A DNA stretch of 64,000 nt from Arcobacter sp. CECT 8985 (GTDB lineage Bacteria > Campylobacterota > Campylobacteria > Campylobacterales > Arcobacteraceae). Location of the stretch: the NCBI RefSeq assembly GCF_004116495.1, contig NZ_PDKC01000001.1, forward strand, positions 62,001 through 126,000, written 5' to 3'. This document shows positions 42,348 through 51,083 of the stretch, piece after piece (within the stretch, counting starts at the first letter, position 1; every line of letters starts with the position of its first letter). The notes under the pieces were generated by a model that was not told the origin of the DNA, ran no database searches, and saw only the letters and a program-made list of their open reading frames with translations. Position numbers and translations under genes: made by a program.

Positions 42348-43166
42348 ATGAAAACGATTATACTAGCTTTTATTTTATCTATTACTATACATATTCTTTT
42401 TTTATATAACTATAAAGTGAAGAAAAAAGATGAGCAATTTTTGCAAGAGCATAAGCTAAAGCCAAATGCAAAGAAAAGTTCTTTGACATTTGTTAGGTTA
42501 AAAAAAGCTCAACCAAAAGTACAAAAGAGTGTAAAAAGCATAGAATCAAAAGCAGTAAAAAAACAAATAAATAAATCAGAAAAACAAAAATTTAAAAAAG
42601 TAAAAAAACATATTGTTCCTATTAAAAAAAGAACAAAAAGAGCAATACCTATTTCTAAAAAGAAACAAGAAGTTAAAAAAGAAAATAAGAAAAAACAGTT
42701 AAAAGAAGTAAAACAAAATATACAAGAACAGCAAAAAAGAAGTGTAAAACAAGATCCTTTAGAAAAATTCTTATTATCAAATCCTGTATTGGATAAAAAA
42801 TACCTTGATAATGAGACAAAAAGTTATATAAAACTTTATGGTAAAGAATATGATAAATTCACAAAAGTTCAAAAAAAATTTTTACAAAACAATTTAAAAA
42901 AAATAGGAAGAATTACACAAAAATATCTTTATAAAAGAGGATATCCTAGAATTGCAGTTAGAACAAAGCAAGAGGGAGTTAATGTATTAGAGTTCTATTT
43001 ATATCCAAATGGTGATATAAGTGATTTAAAAGTTATAAACTCTTCAACTTATGAGACATTAGATAAAAACTCAAAAGAGACGATTGAAGTTGCTTATAAA
43101 GATTATCCAAGACCAAAAGAGAAAACAAAAATTAGAATATATGTTAATTATAAAATTATATATTAA
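42348..43166 (+). CDS. TonB-like energy-transducing protein
   Basis: A 272-residue protein with an N-terminal signal anchor (ILAFILSITIHILFLYNY), a very long Lys/Gln-rich periplasmic linker (about residues 24-140), and a C-terminal TonB-like domain ending ... RTKQEGVNVLEFYLYPNGDISDLKVINSSTYETLDKNSKETI. TonB proteins transmit proton-motive energy to outer-membrane receptors. The linker has Lys-rich runs rather than the usual Pro-rich ones. exbB/exbD are not adjacent. Confidence 0.75.
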   Translation: MKTIILAFILSITIHILFLYNYKVKKKDEQFLQEHKLKPNAKKSSLTFVRLKKAQPKVQKSVKSIESKAVKKQINKSEKQKFKKVKKHIVPIKKRTKRAIPISKKKQEVKKENKKKQLKEVKQNIQEQQKRSVKQDPLEKFLLSNPVLDKKYLDNETKSYIKLYGKEYDKFTKVQKKFLQNNLKKIGRITQKYLYKRGYPRIAVRTKQEGVNVLEFYLYPNGDISDLKVINSSTYETLDKNSKETIEVAYKDYPRPKEKTKIRIYVNYKIIY

Positions 43167-43983
43167 GATATACTTTTAAAACATAATATCCAATTATTGT
43201 TTTTCTAATATCGTATATTGGAGTACTTATTAAATAATAAGAATCGATTTTTTTATAAGATGTGCCTTTAAAATCCAAATCATATAAAAAAGATATATTT
43301 TCATTTGTCTTATTTAAAAGAATATAATTTTTTAATATTTGTTCTTTAGAAAAATCAACTTTAGAAGCAACATTTTTATATTTTTTATCCATGAGAATAT
43401 ATAAACCAATATTTTGTTTTTTAAAATGTTTAATTATTTTATTAAAATCTGTTATTGCTTCTATTGAACCTATATATCTATTTTTACTATCAAAAACTGG
43501 AGTTATTCCACGAATTAACATAGAATATCTTCCTACTTCAATACAAGCAAGTGAGTTTTTATGTTTTTTTACAATAGATAAAGAATACCTAAATGATTTC
43601 AATGAATCATTATCTTTTTGTGGATTCCATAATCTAAAAAAACTTTTCAAATTTTTATCATGAACATGAATCATTAAATTATCAAAAATATCTGTATTAA
43701 TTAATCCATTTTTTGATTTTGTAAGATATTTAAAACATCTACTTTGTTCTTCTGTAGTTAGACAATTTTTTATACTTTCATCTTTTGCTAAAAGAACTGA
43801 TGCTGTTAAAACAAGATTTTTATTTTTATTAACAGAATTTGTAAGTTCATCCAAATATAAATCTATTATTTGTTCATCTTTTTCCTTTTTTTGGTAGCTC
43901 AAATAGTTATTAAAAACCCAAATTAAACTTCCTGCGCTAAAAAGCACAAATACTATTATGCTTATTAAATTTTTATTTTTCAT
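43156..43983 (-). CDS. Periplasmic double-Cache sensor protein of the psr cluster
   Basis: A 275-residue protein with an N-terminal anchor (SIIVFVLFSAGSLIWVF) and a periplasmic body that resembles a double Cache domain: FFRLWNPQKDNDSLKSFR, GRYSMLIRGITPVFDSKNRYIGSIEAITDF and the closing YYLISTPIYDIRKTIIGYYVLKV are typical. It has no cytosolic output domain, so it probably senses a ligand and acts through the membrane kinase encoded just upstream, whose end it overlaps by 11 bp. Last gene of the psr cluster. Confidence 0.65.
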   Translation of the reverse strand: MKNKNLISIIVFVLFSAGSLIWVFNNYLSYQKKEKDEQIIDLYLDELTNSVNKNKNLVLTASVLLAKDESIKNCLTTEEQSRCFKYLTKSKNGLINTDIFDNLMIHVHDKNLKSFFRLWNPQKDNDSLKSFRYSLSIVKKHKNSLACIEVGRYSMLIRGITPVFDSKNRYIGSIEAITDFNKIIKHFKKQNIGLYILMDKKYKNVASKVDFSKEQILKNYILLNKTNENISFLYDLDFKGTSYKKIDSYYLISTPIYDIRKTIIGYYVLKVYLNI

Positions 43984-45139
43984 TTTCTATTCTATCCAAA
44001 AATCTCATTTTATAAATTTCAAAGTTGTAAGTAAAACTTGAACCTTCATCTTCTTTTGATTTTAATTCAATAATTATATTATTTTTATCACAAATACTTT
44101 TTATTATGTTTAAACCTAAACCAAATCCACCTTGAGTATGATCTTCTCTTGAGAATCTACTAAATACTTTTTTTACATCTTTAATTCCAACACCATAATC
44201 TTTTATTGTTAAAGCACATAGTTCAAGTGTTGAAATAAGAGTAATATCAATTTTACTATTAGGCTTTGAATATTTTATAGCATTAATTAATGTATTATCA
44301 ATTATTCTTTGCAGTTCTAAAAGATTCATAAATATATTTATATTATCTTGTATATAAACATTTATTTTAATAAACTTTGAATTTGCTATATCTTCAAAAA
44401 ACTCTATTCTTTCAGCTAAATATTTAGATAAATTAACTTTATCTTTTGGATAAGAAACTCTTTTATTTTTTATATAATATTCTATTGATTCATAATTTAT
44501 TTGTATTTGCTTAATAGCAATCTTCATTCTATTAATATATTTACTTGTACCTTCTTTTCTTGAAAGTAAATCTAAATTGATATTTATTATTCCAAGTGGT
44601 GTTTTTAATTCATGCATTGTATCATTAAAAAGTATATTTGTATACTTTTGCATTACTTCATAAGGTCTTGAAATATTTTTTATAATACTTTTATTCAAAA
44701 TATAAATATTTATTAGAATAATGAAAAATAGTATAGTTGCTAAAAGAATTACTTTTGAGTAATCAAGTTTAGCTTCACACACAATGAAAGATATCTTATA
44801 TATATTATCGCTAATATCTTTTCTATAATATATATAAGGGTAAGATTTAAATATTTTAAAATCAAAATTTTCTAAATCATTTGAAAGATTATAAATTTGA
44901 GGTTCATCTTTTTTGTTAAATAAAGCAAATTTAACCTTTACACTTCTTGCAAATCCTATTTCATCTGAATGAATATTTTTTTCTAATTCATTTGCAAAAT
45001 TTTCAAGGTTCATTTGCTTTACAATAATCTCATTTTCCAAAGCATAACTTAAAGTAAAATACACAGGAATAGTAAATAAAATCATTAATAAAAATGTATA
45101 AAAATATGCAACTTTTGTCTCATTAGTTGGAAATGACAA
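43973..45139 (-). CDS. Sensor histidine kinase of the psr cluster
   Basis: A 388-residue membrane kinase. Two membrane helices (about residues 11-31 and 128-148) bracket a periplasmic segment of roughly 95 residues. The phospho-acceptor is H176 in NDTMHELKTPLGI. The N box IDNTLINAIKYSKP, G1 IKDYGVGI and G2 GGFGLGLNII are intact, so the kinase should be active. It overlaps the response regulator gene by 17 bp and the Cache sensor gene by 11 bp. Confidence 0.88.
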   Translation of the reverse strand: MSFPTNETKVAYFYTFLLMILFTIPVYFTLSYALENEIIVKQMNLENFANELEKNIHSDEIGFARSVKVKFALFNKKDEPQIYNLSNDLENFDFKIFKSYPYIYYRKDISDNIYKISFIVCEAKLDYSKVILLATILFFIILINIYILNKSIIKNISRPYEVMQKYTNILFNDTMHELKTPLGIININLDLLSRKEGTSKYINRMKIAIKQIQINYESIEYYIKNKRVSYPKDKVNLSKYLAERIEFFEDIANSKFIKINVYIQDNINIFMNLLELQRIIDNTLINAIKYSKPNSKIDITLISTLELCALTIKDYGVGIKDVKKVFSRFSREDHTQGGFGLGLNIIKSICDKNNIIIELKSKEDEGSSFTYNFEIYKMRFLDRIENEK

Positions 45140-45788
45140 TTTTATATCCTAATCCTCTATGTGAGATAATGAAATCTTTATGTGTTTTTAATCTAATTTT
45201 TCTGATATACATTCTTATATCTGCATTATTAATCTCTTTTCCTTCCCAAACATTTTCCCTAATATTTTCAATATCACAAAAGATATTTGGATTACTAATT
45301 AGAAACTCAACTAACTCTTTTTCTTTTATACTTAAATCTATTTGTTTATTATCTTTTTTCAAAATACCAGCTGAGATATCAAATGAATAACCATTTTCTA
45401 ATTGGTTTATTTTTTCCATATTTATATTATATACTGTTTGCAAAATTGTATTTATTCTTAACTCTAACTCTTTTAACTCAAAGGGCTTTTTTAAATAATC
45501 CTTACAACCTAATTGATAACCTATTGTTATATTATCAATATCAACAAGAGAAGTAGTAATAATAATAGGAGTATTGTTATTTATATCTTTTAAATATTTA
45601 ATAACTTCATGTCCATTTAATTTTGGTACTTTTATATCTAAAATTGCAAGATAGTATTTATTATCAACAATTGCTTCTAAAGCAGATTGTCCATCATAAA
45701 AACTATCTACAATAAAACCACTATCTTCTAAATACTCTTTTATACTTTCATTATAATTATAATCATCTTCTAATAGTAATATTTTCAT
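45123..45788 (-). CDS. OmpR-family response regulator of the psr cluster
   Basis: A 221-residue DNA-binding regulator. The receiver domain (1-118) has the acidic pair ED at 7-8, phospho-acceptor D51 in LAILDIKVP, the switch Thr/Ser in IITTS, and the Lys of YLKKPF. The winged-helix effector domain follows (about 125-221), ending YIRKIRLKTHKDFIISHRGLGYKIV. Such regulators bind tandem direct repeats about 11 bp apart; two such pairs lie in the psrA promoter region. Downstream of psrC past a hairpin. Confidence 0.9.
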   Translation of the reverse strand: MKILLLEDDYNYNESIKEYLEDSGFIVDSFYDGQSALEAIVDNKYYLAILDIKVPKLNGHEVIKYLKDINNNTPIIITTSLVDIDNITIGYQLGCKDYLKKPFELKELELRINTILQTVYNINMEKINQLENGYSFDISAGILKKDNKQIDLSIKEKELVEFLISNPNIFCDIENIRENVWEGKEINNADIRMYIRKIRLKTHKDFIISHRGLGYKIVISN

Positions 45789-45802
45789 AATATTAGTATA
45801 CT

Positions 45803-45829
45803 ATTAGAGAGATTAAAAATCTCTCTAAT
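45803..45829 (-). terminator. Intercistronic hairpin between psrC and the regulator gene
   Basis: ATTAGAGAGATT and AATCTCTCTAAT form a stem with a very small loop. No T-run follows on the minus strand, so partial termination, giving less regulator than enzyme, is more likely than a full stop. Confidence 0.6.
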
Positions 45830-45830
45830 T

Positions 45831-46805
45831 TCATAGTACTCCTGTAAAAATTTGGCCTGCGTATACAATATAAAATCTCAATAAAATAACTCCAATTAAT
45901 ACAACTACTGAGTTAAATAAAATGAATTTAACTTTATAATCATGATTTTTTAATGCAGTAAGTGCGATTAAAACAGGTGTTACTAATCCAACAGCAATTA
46001 CTCCAACCCAAAAAACAAGTGCCCAGTTTCCAATACTTAGTGCTTGAATTGCAGATATTTTTGATGCTCCGCCTGAATAAAACATTCCAACAAATAGTAA
46101 AAGTAATAAAGGAATTTCAAGCATAATAACTCTTAAATCAAGCATTAATAGATATTTTATACTCTCTTTATTTATACTACTTTTGAAAAATAACATTCCA
46201 ACTAAAATATTCCCTGCAATTCCTGCTGAGATTCCAGAAGCTAGAAATAGTATTGGTAATATAGGAGAGTTCCACATAGGAATACTCATATTTGCAGATA
46301 ATAAGAAACCTGTATATGCTCCTACAATTAGTGCCAAGAAAAACAGAACATACTCTATTTTTTTTGCATATTTTGAAAATGATTTTACAAAACTAACTAT
46401 TGGATAAAAAATTGACAATAATGAATTTTTTTTGATTACATCTTCAAAAATCAATGCTGTAAAAACCAATGACAAAGGTGTATATAAAAACAGTGCAATT
46501 ACACCAAGTGTCATAACTGATTCAAAATTATAACTAATTAATAACCAATAAAAAGACAAAGGTTTACCTAAATCTAAAATCAAAAGACCTAATCCAACAA
46601 TAATTGTAAGAGGTGAAATTAATGCACCTGCTTTAATCATTGCATCCCAAATTGTTGATGTTTCTTTATCATGTCTATTCCATTTTACTAATAAAGCAAT
46701 AATAATAGAACCTGCACTTGCACCTGCTAAAAATAGATACACTGCAATTGGCCATGGCCAATTAATAACATCATATTGAGCCATACTTCCCCATACATTA
46801 TTCAT
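45831..46805 (-). CDS. psrC: NrfD/PsrC-like membrane subunit of polysulfide/thiosulfate reductase
   Basis: A 324-residue integral membrane protein with eight to nine helices, without heme ligands in the usual cytochrome b spacing. WPWPIAVYLFLAGASAGSIIIALLV near the start is the NrfD/PsrC quinone-site region. It would oxidise menaquinol and hand electrons to the Fe-S subunit. Its start overlaps the psrB stop by 8 bp. The name is by family resemblance; related complexes reduce tetrathionate or sulfite. Confidence 0.78.
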   Translation of the reverse strand: MNNVWGSMAQYDVINWPWPIAVYLFLAGASAGSIIIALLVKWNRHDKETSTIWDAMIKAGALISPLTIIVGLGLLILDLGKPLSFYWLLISYNFESVMTLGVIALFLYTPLSLVFTALIFEDVIKKNSLLSIFYPIVSFVKSFSKYAKKIEYVLFFLALIVGAYTGFLLSANMSIPMWNSPILPILFLASGISAGIAGNILVGMLFFKSSINKESIKYLLMLDLRVIMLEIPLLLLLFVGMFYSGGASKISAIQALSIGNWALVFWVGVIAVGLVTPVLIALTALKNHDYKVKFILFNSVVVLIGVILLRFYIVYAGQIFTGVL

Positions 46806-47367
46806 AACTTACTCCTTTTTTATTAGGAACAAATGCAAGTTGTGGTTTAGTTCCTAAGTCTGCTTTAGGATATAAAAGATTACACTCTTTTGCTTTTTGA
46901 TATACAGCTGATTTTGTATCATTTATATCTCCAAACACTAATGCATCAGTTGGACAAACTGTTACACATGCTGGATTTAGTCCTTTTGAAACTCTATTTG
47001 AAAAACAAAAAGTACATTTATCTATATTTTTTGTTATAGGATTAACAAATCTTGCTTCATAAGGACATGCAACAACACAGTATTTACAAGAAACACATAA
47101 ACTGTGATCTATTTGAACTAATCCATCTTTTGTTTGAAAAGATGCTCCTGTAGGACAAACTGTAACACATGGTGCATCTTTACACATTACACATGAGTGT
47201 CTATTCATATCTGTTTTTAGATTAGGAAATTTACCTTTTGTTTCAATTCGAACTTGTAATCTAAATACATCATCTGGTACATCATTTTCACTTCTACATG
47301 CAACACTACAAGCTTGACAACCTATACATAAATTTTCATCGTGTATCATTCTAAAATTTTTTTTCAT
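46798..47367 (-). CDS. psrB: 4Fe-4S ferredoxin-type subunit of polysulfide/thiosulfate reductase
   Basis: A 189-residue electron-transfer protein. Four Cys clusters are visible: CIGCQACSVAC near residues 15-25, CVMCKDAPCVTVCPTG, CVSCKYCVVACPYEARFV, and CTFCFSNRVSKG...ACVTVCPTDAL, enough for four [4Fe-4S] clusters as in PsrB/DmsB. No Tat signal, so it is exported by association with PsrA. Lies 11 bp downstream of psrA. Confidence 0.88.
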   Translation of the reverse strand: MKKNFRMIHDENLCIGCQACSVACRSENDVPDDVFRLQVRIETKGKFPNLKTDMNRHSCVMCKDAPCVTVCPTGASFQTKDGLVQIDHSLCVSCKYCVVACPYEARFVNPITKNIDKCTFCFSNRVSKGLNPACVTVCPTDALVFGDINDTKSAVYQKAKECNLLYPKADLGTKPQLAFVPNKKGVSYE

Positions 47368-47378
47368 AATAAACCCTT

Positions 47379-49673
47379 TTAAACTCTAGTGATTTTCACA
47401 CCAATATTTGTAATCATCGTTGAACAAACTGGAGCAGTTTTTAAAGATAAAAGTTTACCTTGACATGTACCTTTACCATTGGCTCTTTTTAACTCTTTTG
47501 AATCTCTATCAAATCCCATATATACAAAAAGTGTATCTGGTCTAATAGCTTCTGTTACGAATACTGTGGCTTTCTCTTTTCCAATATCATTTTCTAAGAA
47601 AATTTTATCTCCTGTTTTTATATTCTCTTTTTTTGCTGTAATTGGATTTACCCAAACTGGATTATCACTCATTAACATATTTAAAAAAGGAATATTTTGA
47701 GTATGCCCATTTGTATGAAGTGCTGTTTTACCAGAAGTAATAATATATGGATAGCCATTTTGAACATCCATATCATGATCTGCTGGAACTCCATAACCTG
47801 GAAATGCATCTTCTACATTTTGTGCAAATAATTCTATTTTTCCACTTGGTGTTTTAAATTTAATCATTTTTGTAAATAACCCATCTTTATCTAAGTTTGA
47901 TGCAGCTGTTGGATATTTTTTTACAAATTCATCTACATATTTTTTTTCTCTATAAAATAATGCAGGAACACCAAAAGAAACATAACCATCTTTTGCAAGT
48001 TTTTCTAAAAGTTTAATATTACCTTTTGCTTGGTGTGCTCTAAAGCCATTTATGTTATTCCATTTGTATGCAGAATCAATTTTTAATCTTTTTGCAAGTT
48101 CTCTAAAAATCTCATAATTAGTTAATGTTTTATTTATTGGTTCAACTACTTTATTTCTCATCATATAAGCTGGTGCTTTAGATGAAACATCATGAATTCC
48201 TTCATCTCTTTCTAAATAAGTAGCTTCTGGAAGTACAACATCTGCCATTTGTGCAGTTTCAGACATATAAACATCATTTACAACAATTAAATCAAGTTGA
48301 TTCATTGCCTCTTTCATTTTTTGTGGGTTTGCAACAGTTTGAAGAGGATTAGTTCTTGTCATTATCCAAGCTTTTACTTCATATGGTTTTTTTGATAATA
48401 TAGCTTCTGGAAGATCTGGTAAAACTCCATATTTTCTTGAAACAAAAATATTTTTACCCTCTTGACTTGCATTATCAATTCTTAAATCTTTTATAATTTT
48501 TATATGTTTATCTGGATTACCAATAGTTGGAACAATATTTTTATTTGCAATTTTATTTACAGTTTTTGCTTTTTTACCAAAAAATAATCCACCCTCTTTT
48601 TCAAGGTTTCCCATTAGTGCATTTGCTACTAAGATAGCTCTTGTTCTTTGAAACTCACTTTGACCAGTTGTTGTTTTGTGACCCCAATCAATGATACATT
48701 TTGGTGCTGCTTGATAGATCTCATTTGCAACTTTTTCAGCAACTTGTGCTTTAATTCCAGTAATTTTCTCTTGCCATTGAGGAGTTGTTGTTTTTGTACT
48801 TTTAATTAACTCATCAATTCCAACTGTATAGTTTTTTACAAACTCTTTATCATATTTACCATCTCTTAACCAAACATGAATTAATGATAATATAAATGCT
48901 AAATCTGTTCCTGGTTTTACACTGTGCCACTCATCTGCTTTTGAAGCAACAATTGAAAATCTTGGATCTAATACTACTAATTTACAATCATCTTTATTAA
49001 CTGCTTTTGCAAACTTTTTAGTTTTACTAACAGCAATTCCTTCAAATAAATTATGTCCAAAATTTAATATATATTTTGCATTTGAAAAATCTCTTTTTAA
49101 TCCAGACCCATAAGTATGGTGGAATGCAACTTTATATGTAATTGGACATGTTGAGACATGGGAAAATAAATTAGGACTCCCAAATAGACTAGAAAAAGTT
49201 GCTAAATGATGAAATTGCTCACCTGTTTTTGCTGAAAATATAACAGATTTTGCACCATGATCTTTTTTTATTTTATTCAATTTTTTAGTAATAAAATTAA
49301 AAGCTTCATCATAAGAAACTACCATCCATTTATCTTCACCTCTTTTTCCTACTCTAATAAGAGGTTTTACTAATCTTTGTTTATCATACAGCTGTGAATG
49401 ACCAGATCCACCCCTTGCACAAATTGACGTGTTCATACCTTTTGAATTACTATTCCCTTGAATAAAAGTAACTTTACCTTTTTCAACTTTCGCTTCAATC
49501 TGACATCTACTACTACACATTTCACAGTAAGTATATACACTCTTATTAGAGCCATCAAATACAGGAGAATCTAGAGAACCTAGTTTACCCGCCATACAAG
49601 ATGTACCTGCTGCAAAAACTGCAGTAGAAGCAGTAGTTTTAAGAAAATCTCTTCTTGTATAAGTACTACTCAT
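47379..49673 (-). CDS. psrA: Molybdopterin catalytic subunit of polysulfide/thiosulfate reductase, Tat-exported
   Basis: A 764-residue periplasmic catalytic subunit. A Tat signal TRRDFLKTTASTAVFAAG opens the protein. The [4Fe-4S] motif YCEMCSSRCQIEAKV lies near residues 49-63 and its last Cys in TSICARGGSG. The Mo-bis-MGD domains follow, with a Cys in HVSTCPITYK as likely Mo ligand and the C-terminal cofactor domain GKTALHTNGHTQNIPFL. The length agrees with PsrA/PhsA (about 760) and not with TtrA (about 1000). Substrate polysulfide or thiosulfate is inferred, not proven. First gene of the cluster. Confidence 0.85.
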   Translation of the reverse strand: MSSTYTRRDFLKTTASTAVFAAGTSCMAGKLGSLDSPVFDGSNKSVYTYCEMCSSRCQIEAKVEKGKVTFIQGNSNSKGMNTSICARGGSGHSQLYDKQRLVKPLIRVGKRGEDKWMVVSYDEAFNFITKKLNKIKKDHGAKSVIFSAKTGEQFHHLATFSSLFGSPNLFSHVSTCPITYKVAFHHTYGSGLKRDFSNAKYILNFGHNLFEGIAVSKTKKFAKAVNKDDCKLVVLDPRFSIVASKADEWHSVKPGTDLAFILSLIHVWLRDGKYDKEFVKNYTVGIDELIKSTKTTTPQWQEKITGIKAQVAEKVANEIYQAAPKCIIDWGHKTTTGQSEFQRTRAILVANALMGNLEKEGGLFFGKKAKTVNKIANKNIVPTIGNPDKHIKIIKDLRIDNASQEGKNIFVSRKYGVLPDLPEAILSKKPYEVKAWIMTRTNPLQTVANPQKMKEAMNQLDLIVVNDVYMSETAQMADVVLPEATYLERDEGIHDVSSKAPAYMMRNKVVEPINKTLTNYEIFRELAKRLKIDSAYKWNNINGFRAHQAKGNIKLLEKLAKDGYVSFGVPALFYREKKYVDEFVKKYPTAASNLDKDGLFTKMIKFKTPSGKIELFAQNVEDAFPGYGVPADHDMDVQNGYPYIITSGKTALHTNGHTQNIPFLNMLMSDNPVWVNPITAKKENIKTGDKIFLENDIGKEKATVFVTEAIRPDTLFVYMGFDRDSKELKRANGKGTCQGKLLSLKTAPVCSTMITNIGVKITRV

Positions 49674-49702: not shown

Positions 49703-49795
49703 ATCTTAATCTTTAAAAGTAAATTTTATGTAAATTTTAAATTGATTTTAAATATTTTTTTAATTTACTTTAAATTTACTCAATACTTTTATAAT
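49703..49795. promoter_or_regulatory. Mirrored direct-repeat operators in the psrA/radical-SAM divergent promoter
   Basis: On the plus strand GTAAATTTTAT (49719-49729) is followed directly by GTAAATTTTAA (49730-49740). On the minus strand GTAAATTTAAA (49779-49769) is followed by GTAAATTAAAA (49768-49758). Each pair has an 11-bp period. Exactly 10 bp separate the outer end of each pair from a candidate -10 box: TAAGAT (49708-49703, toward psrA) and TATAAT (49790-49795, toward the radical SAM gene). The period and position suit OmpR-family activators overlapping the -35 region. Confidence 0.7.
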
Positions 49796-49814: not shown

Positions 49815-51083
49815 ATGATTAACAATATTAAAGATGTACTAATAAATAATCTTATAAATAGTACGGTAAATAAAGCTTTTGATTCTTCTGTAAAAATAAT
49901 AAAAACATCAAAAGAGGATAATAAATTTAATCATTTAAATAAAGATGCTTCTTATTTATTATATATTCATATTCCATTTTGTGATAATTTATGTCCTTTT
50001 TGTACATTTCATAAATATAAATATGACCATAAAAAATCTATTAAATACTTTAAAAATTTAAGAAAAGAGATTAGAGTATTAAAATCATATAACACAAAAA
50101 TTGATTCTATATATATTGGAGGAGGAAGTCCTTTAATAAATGAAGTTGAGATAATTAAAACAATAAAACTTTTAAAAGAGTTATTTGATGTTGATGATAT
50201 ATCTTGTGAAACGGATCCTAATCATATTGAATTAGAAACTGTAAAAAAATTAAAAGGTTTAGTAAAAAGATTATCAATTGGTGTACAAAGCTTTGATAAT
50301 GAGATATTAAAAAAACTAAGTAGATATGATAGATTTGGAAATGATAAAGAATTAATAAGAAAAATCAAAAATATAACAAGAATTCTTCCTATTACAAATG
50401 TTGATTTGATATTTAATCTTCCAAATCAAACTGAAGCTTCATTGAGAAAAGATTTAGAAATTGCTAAAAATTTAGAAGTAGAACAAATCACAACATACCC
50501 TCTTATGAGTTCTACATTAAATAGTAAATTCATAAATAGATTTCAAGCAAATCAAAATAAAGAAAAATTTTATTACTTGATTTGTGATATTCTAAAAGAT
50601 TATCATATGAATAATATGTGGTCATTTTCTAAAGAGTGTGTAGAGATATTAAATGATGAATATGTATCAAATCACAATGAATACATTGGACTTGGAAGTG
50701 GTGGTTTTAGCTATTTAGAAGGTAATTTATTTGTAAATAGTTATGATTTAGACAATTATGAAAAATTACTAAATAAAAGAAAAGATACAATAATTGCAAA
50801 AAGTACTTTTAATAAAAAAGAGGTAATTCAATATTACTTTTTATGTACTTTATTTTCTGGTTCTTTTAATATAAAAAAATATTATGAAACCTTTAATATA
50901 GATTTAGAAAAATATTTAAAAAAAGAGCTATTTTTAATTAAAAAACTTGATTTTGTTTATGAAAAAGAAGATGTATTATACCTTACAAAAAAAGGACAAT
51001 ATGTACTTACTGTAATCATGGCTAATTTCTATTCCAAAATGGATAAAGTTAGAGCTATATTTAAAAGTGGACAAATAGTTTAA
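49815..51083 (+). CDS. HemN/HemW-like radical SAM protein divergent from psrA
   Basis: A 422-residue cytosolic protein. The radical SAM CxxxCxxC motif is in IHIPFCDNLCPFCTFHKY near residues 54-71. YIGGGSPLI, RLSIGVQSFDNEILKKLSR and the C-terminal HNEYIGLGSGGFSYLEG follow the HemN/HemW family pattern. It could be a coproporphyrinogen dehydrogenase, a heme chaperone, or another heme-related enzyme; HemN proper usually has further signatures I do not see. AAAAGGAG precedes the ATG. It shares a mirrored promoter with psrA, suggesting coexpression. Confidence 0.7.
   Translation: MINNIKDVLINNLINSTVNKAFDSSVKIIKTSKEDNKFNHLNKDASYLLYIHIPFCDNLCPFCTFHKYKYDHKKSIKYFKNLRKEIRVLKSYNTKIDSIYIGGGSPLINEVEIIKTIKLLKELFDVDDISCETDPNHIELETVKKLKGLVKRLSIGVQSFDNEILKKLSRYDRFGNDKELIRKIKNITRILPITNVDLIFNLPNQTEASLRKDLEIAKNLEVEQITTYPLMSSTLNSKFINRFQANQNKEKFYYLICDILKDYHMNNMWSFSKECVEILNDEYVSNHNEYIGLGSGGFSYLEGNLFVNSYDLDNYEKLLNKRKDTIIAKSTFNKKEVIQYYFLCTLFSGSFNIKKYYETFNIDLEKYLKKELFLIKKLDFVYEKEDVLYLTKKGQYVLTVIMANFYSKMDKVRAIFKSGQIV

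Follow-up and report, generated by a model that had tools for sequence, protein, structure and literature searches.

In Arcobacter sp. CECT 8985, two pairs of AATTTAC boxes lie between the reductase gene psrA and a divergently oriented radical SAM gene, and they are in all likelihood best explained as PHO-box-like activator sites of a response regulator of the OmpR family, which would drive the psrABC genes, the genes of the regulator itself, its histidine kinase and a dCache protein, and also the radical SAM gene. Very probably, both pairs serve as docking sites of the regulator encoded in the same cluster. The sequence and geometry of the boxes, their rarity in the genome, their conservation and their co-occurrence with the regulator gene were observed directly. 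The letters of the boxes alone do not name the regulator, since similar boxes precede genes beside other regulators; the predicted assignment of the AATTTAC boxes to the psr-linked regulator builds on linkage and co-occurrence.

Genes of the psr Cluster

The window, i.e., the whole stretch of 64,000 nucleotides analysed here, carries on its minus strand a psrA/phsA gene (47379-49673) for the molybdopterin-containing catalytic subunit of a thiosulfate/polysulfide reductase. Its product scored 1067 bits with the NCBIfam profile PhsA (PRK15488; cut-off 694), a profile that leaves thiosulfate versus polysulfide unsettled for this protein. Adjacent are psrB for the 4Fe-4S subunit (46798-47367; profile matches) and psrC for an NrfD-like membrane anchor (45831-46805; Pfam NrfD), followed on the same strand, after a gap of 42 nt with an inverted repeat (45789-45830), by the genes of the response regulator (45123-45788), a sensor histidine kinase (43973-45139; profile matches) and a solitary dCache_3 protein (43156-43983; Pfam dCache_3, E 1.8e-12), in which no output domain was found and which we propose as an accessory sensor. 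The regulator gene overlaps the kinase gene, and the kinase gene overlaps the dCache gene.

An earlier reading made from the sequence only had placed an OmpR-family regulator in this cluster, and the gene at 45123-45788 turned out to be a bona fide member. Its product, our proposed activator, matched Pfam Response_reg with 80.5 bits (cut-off 30.2) and Trans_reg_C with 39.8 bits (cut-off 26.2), was further characterised by its orthologs and a tree, and revealed a phosphoacceptor Asp, acidic pocket, Thr and Lys (D8, D9, D51, T79 and K100/K101) that are invariant among 11 orthologs.

On the plus strand, the proposed second target gene (49815-51083) encodes a radical SAM protein of the HemN/HemW-like family PRK08629 (478.7 bits, cut-off 355). 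Other HemN/HemW-like genes are present in the same genome, and a paralog of the radical SAM gene (46-48%; G000:C81:32606-33856, locus L103) was noticed in an operon resembling mcc, together with genes for a multihaem cytochrome, a PPIase, an FeS subunit, an NrfD-like protein and a CcsB-type haem lyase; this paralog is apparently likewise tied to sulfur respiration.

Sequence and Geometry of the Repeat Pairs

Read directly from the sequence, the plus strand holds the 11-mers GTAAATTTTAT at 49719-49729 and GTAAATTTTAA at 49730-49740, and the minus strand holds the 11-mers GTAAATTTAAA and GTAAATTAAAA, whose heptamers occupy 49773-49779 and 49762-49768. All four fit the form GTAAATTnnAn in two opposed direct-repeat pairs, and the sequence-only reading had both pattern and coordinates right. 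The putative psrA operator (49719-49736, minus strand) consists of two AATTTAC heptamers at 49730-49736 and 49719-49725 with an 11-bp period, reads toward psrA and is kept in relatives. After 10 bp it is followed by the -10 hexamer TAAGAT (49703-49708, minus strand), which is the commonest form among relatives, so that the promoter reads AATTTAC-ATAA-AATTTAC-N10-TAAGAT from 49736 down to 49703. The putative radical SAM operator (49762-49779, plus strand), also kept in relatives, has its two AATTTAC heptamers at 49762-49768 and 49773-49779 with the same 11-bp period and lies 10 bp from the -10 hexamer TATAAT (49790-49795, plus strand), giving AATTTAC-TTTA-AATTTAC-N10-TATAAT over 49762-49795. 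The distance of exactly 10 bp proposed for each pair was measured on both sides. In both promoters, two conserved direct 7-bp repeats with a 4-bp spacer (11-bp period) occupy, at a fixed position roughly one helical turn ahead of the -10 hexamer, the place of the -35 element, as is expected of a PHO-box-like operator.

Within the 2,788,337-bp genome, the exact 18-mer GTAAATT-N4-GTAAATT occurs in two copies, both between psrA and the radical SAM gene, and the stricter pattern GTAAATTNNANGTAAATTNNAN revealed two matches versus none for the reversed control. Because single near-matches with at most one mismatch are common in such AT-rich DNA (0.43 expected per 64 kb; 8 of 100 shuffles reached two), a pair alone is weak evidence, and the weight therefore lies on both copies being exact, on the matching -10 distances and on conservation. 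A genome search with the 34-bp composite including the -10 hexamer ranked the radical SAM promoter first, with 0 mismatches; the psrA promoter displayed two, a score shared by just one other site, which falls within an open frame of 325 codons. A wider regulon in this genome was considered and rejected: near-matches to the boxes lay mostly within coding sequence or came without a -10 hexamer at the right distance, and only the promoter of a TsdA-like gene stood out. The partial box found at one TRAP-transporter gene (L060) was considered too weak to count. In this AT-rich DNA, a generic sigma-70 scan, with 61 promoter-like sites versus 64 expected, was as uninformative as a generic terminator scan.

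Conservation across Relatives

In Malaciobacter-like genomes, the nearest relatives of the window, and in Sulfurospirillum, the composite AATTTAC-N4-AATTTAC-N10-(-10) recurs before psrA as well as before the radical SAM gene, and a more degenerate form is found in some Campylobacter that have an ortholog of the regulator; the tandem 11-bp boxes and the -10 hexamer are kept over two families and, more loosely, in a third. Before psrA, it was present in every locus read that had a close ortholog of the regulator (62-87%) and complete psrA upstream DNA, these loci coming from the Malaciobacter-like G002-G005, from G365 and from Sulfurospirillum-type genomes. Before the radical SAM gene, it was also present where this gene lies elsewhere or is convergent (G002, G003, S. 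cavolei, L160, L162, L163), the gene in S. cavolei and several others being convergent with the regulator operon and equipped with its own pair. In Sulfurospirillum, the boxes are located at psrA1, and the psrA2 copy next to the regulator ortholog is without them; they are also absent from psrA of G048, a locus with no adjacent regulator gene. The sites of Campylobacter are weaker, with one exact pair (L168) and two at 11/14 (L174, L176). Upstream of psrA of C. concisus, the best box matches reached 10-12/14, none of them convincing, and the psrA site of G045 stayed within shuffle noise (66/300).

At the level of single bases, the psrA promoters showed top-base fractions of 0.94 and 0.97 in the boxes and 0.94 in the -10 hexamer, and of 0.56 in the gap and 0.56-0.57 in the flanks, and the radical SAM promoters revealed the same pattern, with boxes and -10 hexamer above gap and flanks. 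Almost every promoter keeps the 10-bp length of the gap, the bases of which are not conserved. Repeats lost while the -10 boxes persist had been named beforehand as the outcome that would speak against the operators; the opposite was found, boxes and -10 hexamers both being conserved. Among 557 upstream regions scored across the loci compared, the 25 with at least 19/21 all belonged to psrA or the radical SAM gene, and the 16 regions at 18/21 belonged to psrA, the radical SAM gene or a TsdA-like di-haem cytochrome gene beside a sister system. These conservation fractions and counts are descriptive and not independent trials, as the genomes share ancestry and the consensus was derived from the window itself.

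G004 and G005 have the same gene arrangement with all four boxes, and the mirror layout is also seen in G365, which belongs to another genus of the family, and in the Sulfurospirillum relatives G272 and G403. In G002 and G003, psrA and the radical SAM gene lie at separate places, yet each keeps its own pair (exact for the radical SAM gene, one mismatch for psrA), and the pairs are therefore separate operators. From pair to pair, the spacing is 43 bp in the window's genome (G000), 46 bp in G004, 45 bp in G005 and G365, 42 bp in G272 and 41 bp in G403, a range of half a helical turn. A mirror-symmetric arrangement acting as a single functional operator was rejected on account of these separated loci and the variable spacing of 41-46 bp: what stands of the sequence-only reading is a separate pair before each of both genes, and the mirror layout merely reflects the divergent gene order.

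Two further loci were noted. In a Campylobacteraceae MAG (L164: 7101-10675), a radical SAM gene with a box promoter directly precedes psrB, psrC and the regulator gene, and no psrA was found within about 10 kb of them. In G272 (C113:9674, L255), a further strong box pair with a -10 hexamer lies just downstream of the radical SAM gene.

A Sister System Linked to TsdA

A sister set of dCache, regulator and kinase genes (G000:C66, L102: 6895-10460) adjoins the gene of a TsdA-like thiosulfate dehydrogenase, and its regulator is 51-52% identical to the psr-linked one. The TsdA-like di-haem cytochrome of the window's genome matches the thiosulfate dehydrogenase TsdA in the PDB with E about 1e-36, and the Sulfurospirillum copies were assigned by their similar sequence to this copy. 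The promoter of the TsdA-like gene displays the same geometry with other letters, namely AATTGAC in Sulfurospirillum and AAGTTAC/TACTTAC in the window's genome; in G004 and G006, its boxes come near AATTTAC (AATAAAC-N4-AATTTAC and AAATTAC-N4-AATTTAC, respectively). The DNA-recognition helices of the two regulator groups differ (NDIRMLIKKLRDK and ADIRVCIKKIRDK versus ADIRMYIRKIRLK). Since the sister regulator has a target with similar boxes in the same genome, cross-talk with the psr-linked regulator is possible.

In Sulfurospirillum, TATTTAC-N4-TATTTAC-N10-TATAAT was found before an HtrA-like protease gene (G055:C1:1543820 and G178:C1:1072133; L265, L266), perhaps as the site of another OmpR-type regulator. 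These pairs and the TsdA-like boxes close to AATTTAC indicate that the geometry is common to several regulators. Sites of the form AATTAACACTTA(C/T)TTAAC-N10-TATAAT also recur (G004:C1:82850, G005:C1:1562286, G178:C1:2637185) and represent perhaps another OmpR-family regulon.

A broader view, which we offer tentatively and regard as rather doubtful, is that sister three-gene sensors of Campylobacterota (regulator, kinase and solitary dCache protein) handle sulfur compounds with diverged boxes in one fixed geometry, one controlling Psr/Phs and a dedicated HemN-like radical SAM enzyme and the other the TsdA thiosulfate dehydrogenase/tetrathionate reductase. The respiration of sulfur compounds would then require the radical SAM enzyme as a hitherto unrecognised partner, and its gene would not be a spare one for haem synthesis.

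Proposed Mechanism and Alternative Explanations

What we infer, namely binding, activation rather than repression, a signal and read-through, would combine as follows. The kinase, together with the dCache protein, would phosphorylate the regulator (45123-45788) in response to a signal that is probably a sulfur oxyanion or polysulfide, as judged from the target genes and the TsdA-linked sister system. The phosphorylated regulator would bind both AATTTAC boxes of a pair head-to-tail and would recruit the sigma-70 RNA polymerase in a class II, PHO-box-like activation, in which the boxes, as tandem half-sites on the same face of the helix, stand in for the -35 element roughly one turn ahead of the -10 hexamer. 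One pair would drive psrABC and, by transcription reading through a hairpin, also the genes of the regulator, the kinase and the sensor; the other would drive the radical SAM gene, the two pairs acting independently.

It is unlikely that the boxes, as operators, are bound mainly by a different OmpR-family regulator, with the TsdA-linked sister regulator as the foremost candidate, or that the two systems share targets: the sister regulator does adjoin a gene with the same promoter geometry, and the boxes of G004 and G006 are close to AATTTAC, but where both systems occur the letters differ (AATTGAC versus AATTTAC in Sulfurospirillum, AAGTTAC/TACTTAC versus AATTTAC in the window's genome), as do the recognition helices. 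Moreover, G001 has the sister regulator, no psrA match at E 1e-150 and composite matches not above the reversed control (13 versus 12). Repression, with the regulator occluding the promoter, appears slightly less likely still. Some OmpR-family regulators repress, and a regulator bound at the boxes, which overlap the -35 zone, could also keep the polymerase out; however, an exact spacing to the -10 hexamer on the coding strand is how activator sites such as the PHO box and those of HP1043 are laid out, and for PceP of Sulfurospirillum, too, activation was proposed from sites that overlap the -35 box (PMC7755780).

Control of psrA by an AraC-type regulator, as with PsrR, which is needed for the synthesis of polysulfide reductase in Wolinella (reviewed in PMC6682613), is improbable here. 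The window's genome revealed 12 AraC-type (HTH_18) matches, but none was found within the cluster or close to it, those nearest to it on the contig being about 90-100 kb away, and the cluster has its own regulator, kinase and dCache genes; the HTH_18 search, which covers linkage only and no distant PsrR, found no AraC-type regulator linked to psr. Least probable of all is that the repeats reflect a generic AT-rich periodicity of the sigma-70 promoters of Campylobacterota, with their weak -35, in which no dedicated regulator takes part. The region is indeed very AT-rich, with 0.43 single near-matches expected per 64 kb, but the conservation across families is base-specific and includes the terminal C, the motif is near-absent from the other upstream regions among the 557, and the boxes persist at separated loci and co-occur with the regulator; the conservation pattern and the scan of the 557 regions largely exclude such a periodicity.

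Possible Autoregulation and the psrC Hairpin

For the regulator favoured here, i.e., the psr-linked one, the gene is located after psrABC in the same orientation, an order that suggests autoregulation, and positive autoregulation would hold only if the regulator gene is transcribed from the psrA promoter. The hairpin between psrC and the regulator gene keeps its pairing while its sequence changes among the eight genomes compared (the window's genome, G002-G005, G365, G272 and G403), and it is followed by T-rich DNA in G272 and G403. It is possibly a partial terminator or processing site and may thin or process the transcript, thereby cutting co-expression of the regulator and weakening autoregulation. 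In Sulfurospirillum, the regulator gene comes after psrABC2, the promoter of which is without boxes. A TATACT/TATAAT-like hexamer was also observed just before the start of the regulator gene and could represent a separate, near-leaderless promoter.

Comparison with Known Systems

The switch proposed here is of an ordinary, well-known bacterial kind and is newly placed: an OmpR-family regulator is predicted to control Psr/Phs respiration together with a linked radical SAM gene, a prediction for which the comparison of genomes gives good support. The only psrABC regulator named in a review is the AraC-type PsrR of Wolinella (PMC6682613), and the literature searched yielded no earlier account of psrABC being controlled by an OmpR-type regulator. 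In free-living Campylobacterota, the boxes are a concrete candidate for an element that controls thiosulfate/polysulfide respiration, and as common promoter elements they tie an uncharacterised HemN-like radical SAM gene to this respiration, even when the genes are apart. The two related regulators with diverged boxes form a natural pair for studying specificity.

The consensus of CpxR is GTAAA-N4-8-GTAAA. Our boxes share its GTAAA direct repeats, here as GTAAA-N6-GTAAA, but there is no envelope-stress context, and the regulator scored 74.6 bits with the CpxR profile (cut-off 341). A PHO box has two 11-nt direct repeat units of seven conserved and four less conserved bases each (PMC4415409), and class II promoters of E. 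coli with PhoB resemble ours in the 11-nt direct repeats, which replace the -35 element, with the activator reading toward the gene. The letters differ, however (CTGTCAT versus AATTTAC), and our regulator belongs to another clade, with presumably another signal, scoring 85.9 bits with the NCBIfam PhoB profile (cut-off 296.2).

Within the same phylum, the sites of the OmpR-family regulator HP1043 (HsrA) of Helicobacter pylori are direct repeats with centres 11 bp apart that replace the -35 element (PMC5253667), as in our promoters; unlike the local two-component system described here, HP1043 is an essential orphan with a broad regulon and a TTTAAG repeat with a weaker second copy. PceP of Sulfurospirillum, part of an OmpR-family two-component control of the reductase for tetrachloroethene respiration, likewise has a respiratory reductase as its target and direct repeats over the -35 element, and in its case, too, both sides of a divergent intergenic region are controlled together (PMC7755780), but its spacing is CTATW-N17-CTATW, and one shared central site takes the place of the two separate pairs found here. 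PsrR of Wolinella succinogenes, finally, controls psrABC as proposed for our regulator, but is a member of the AraC family and not a two-component response regulator (PMC6682613).
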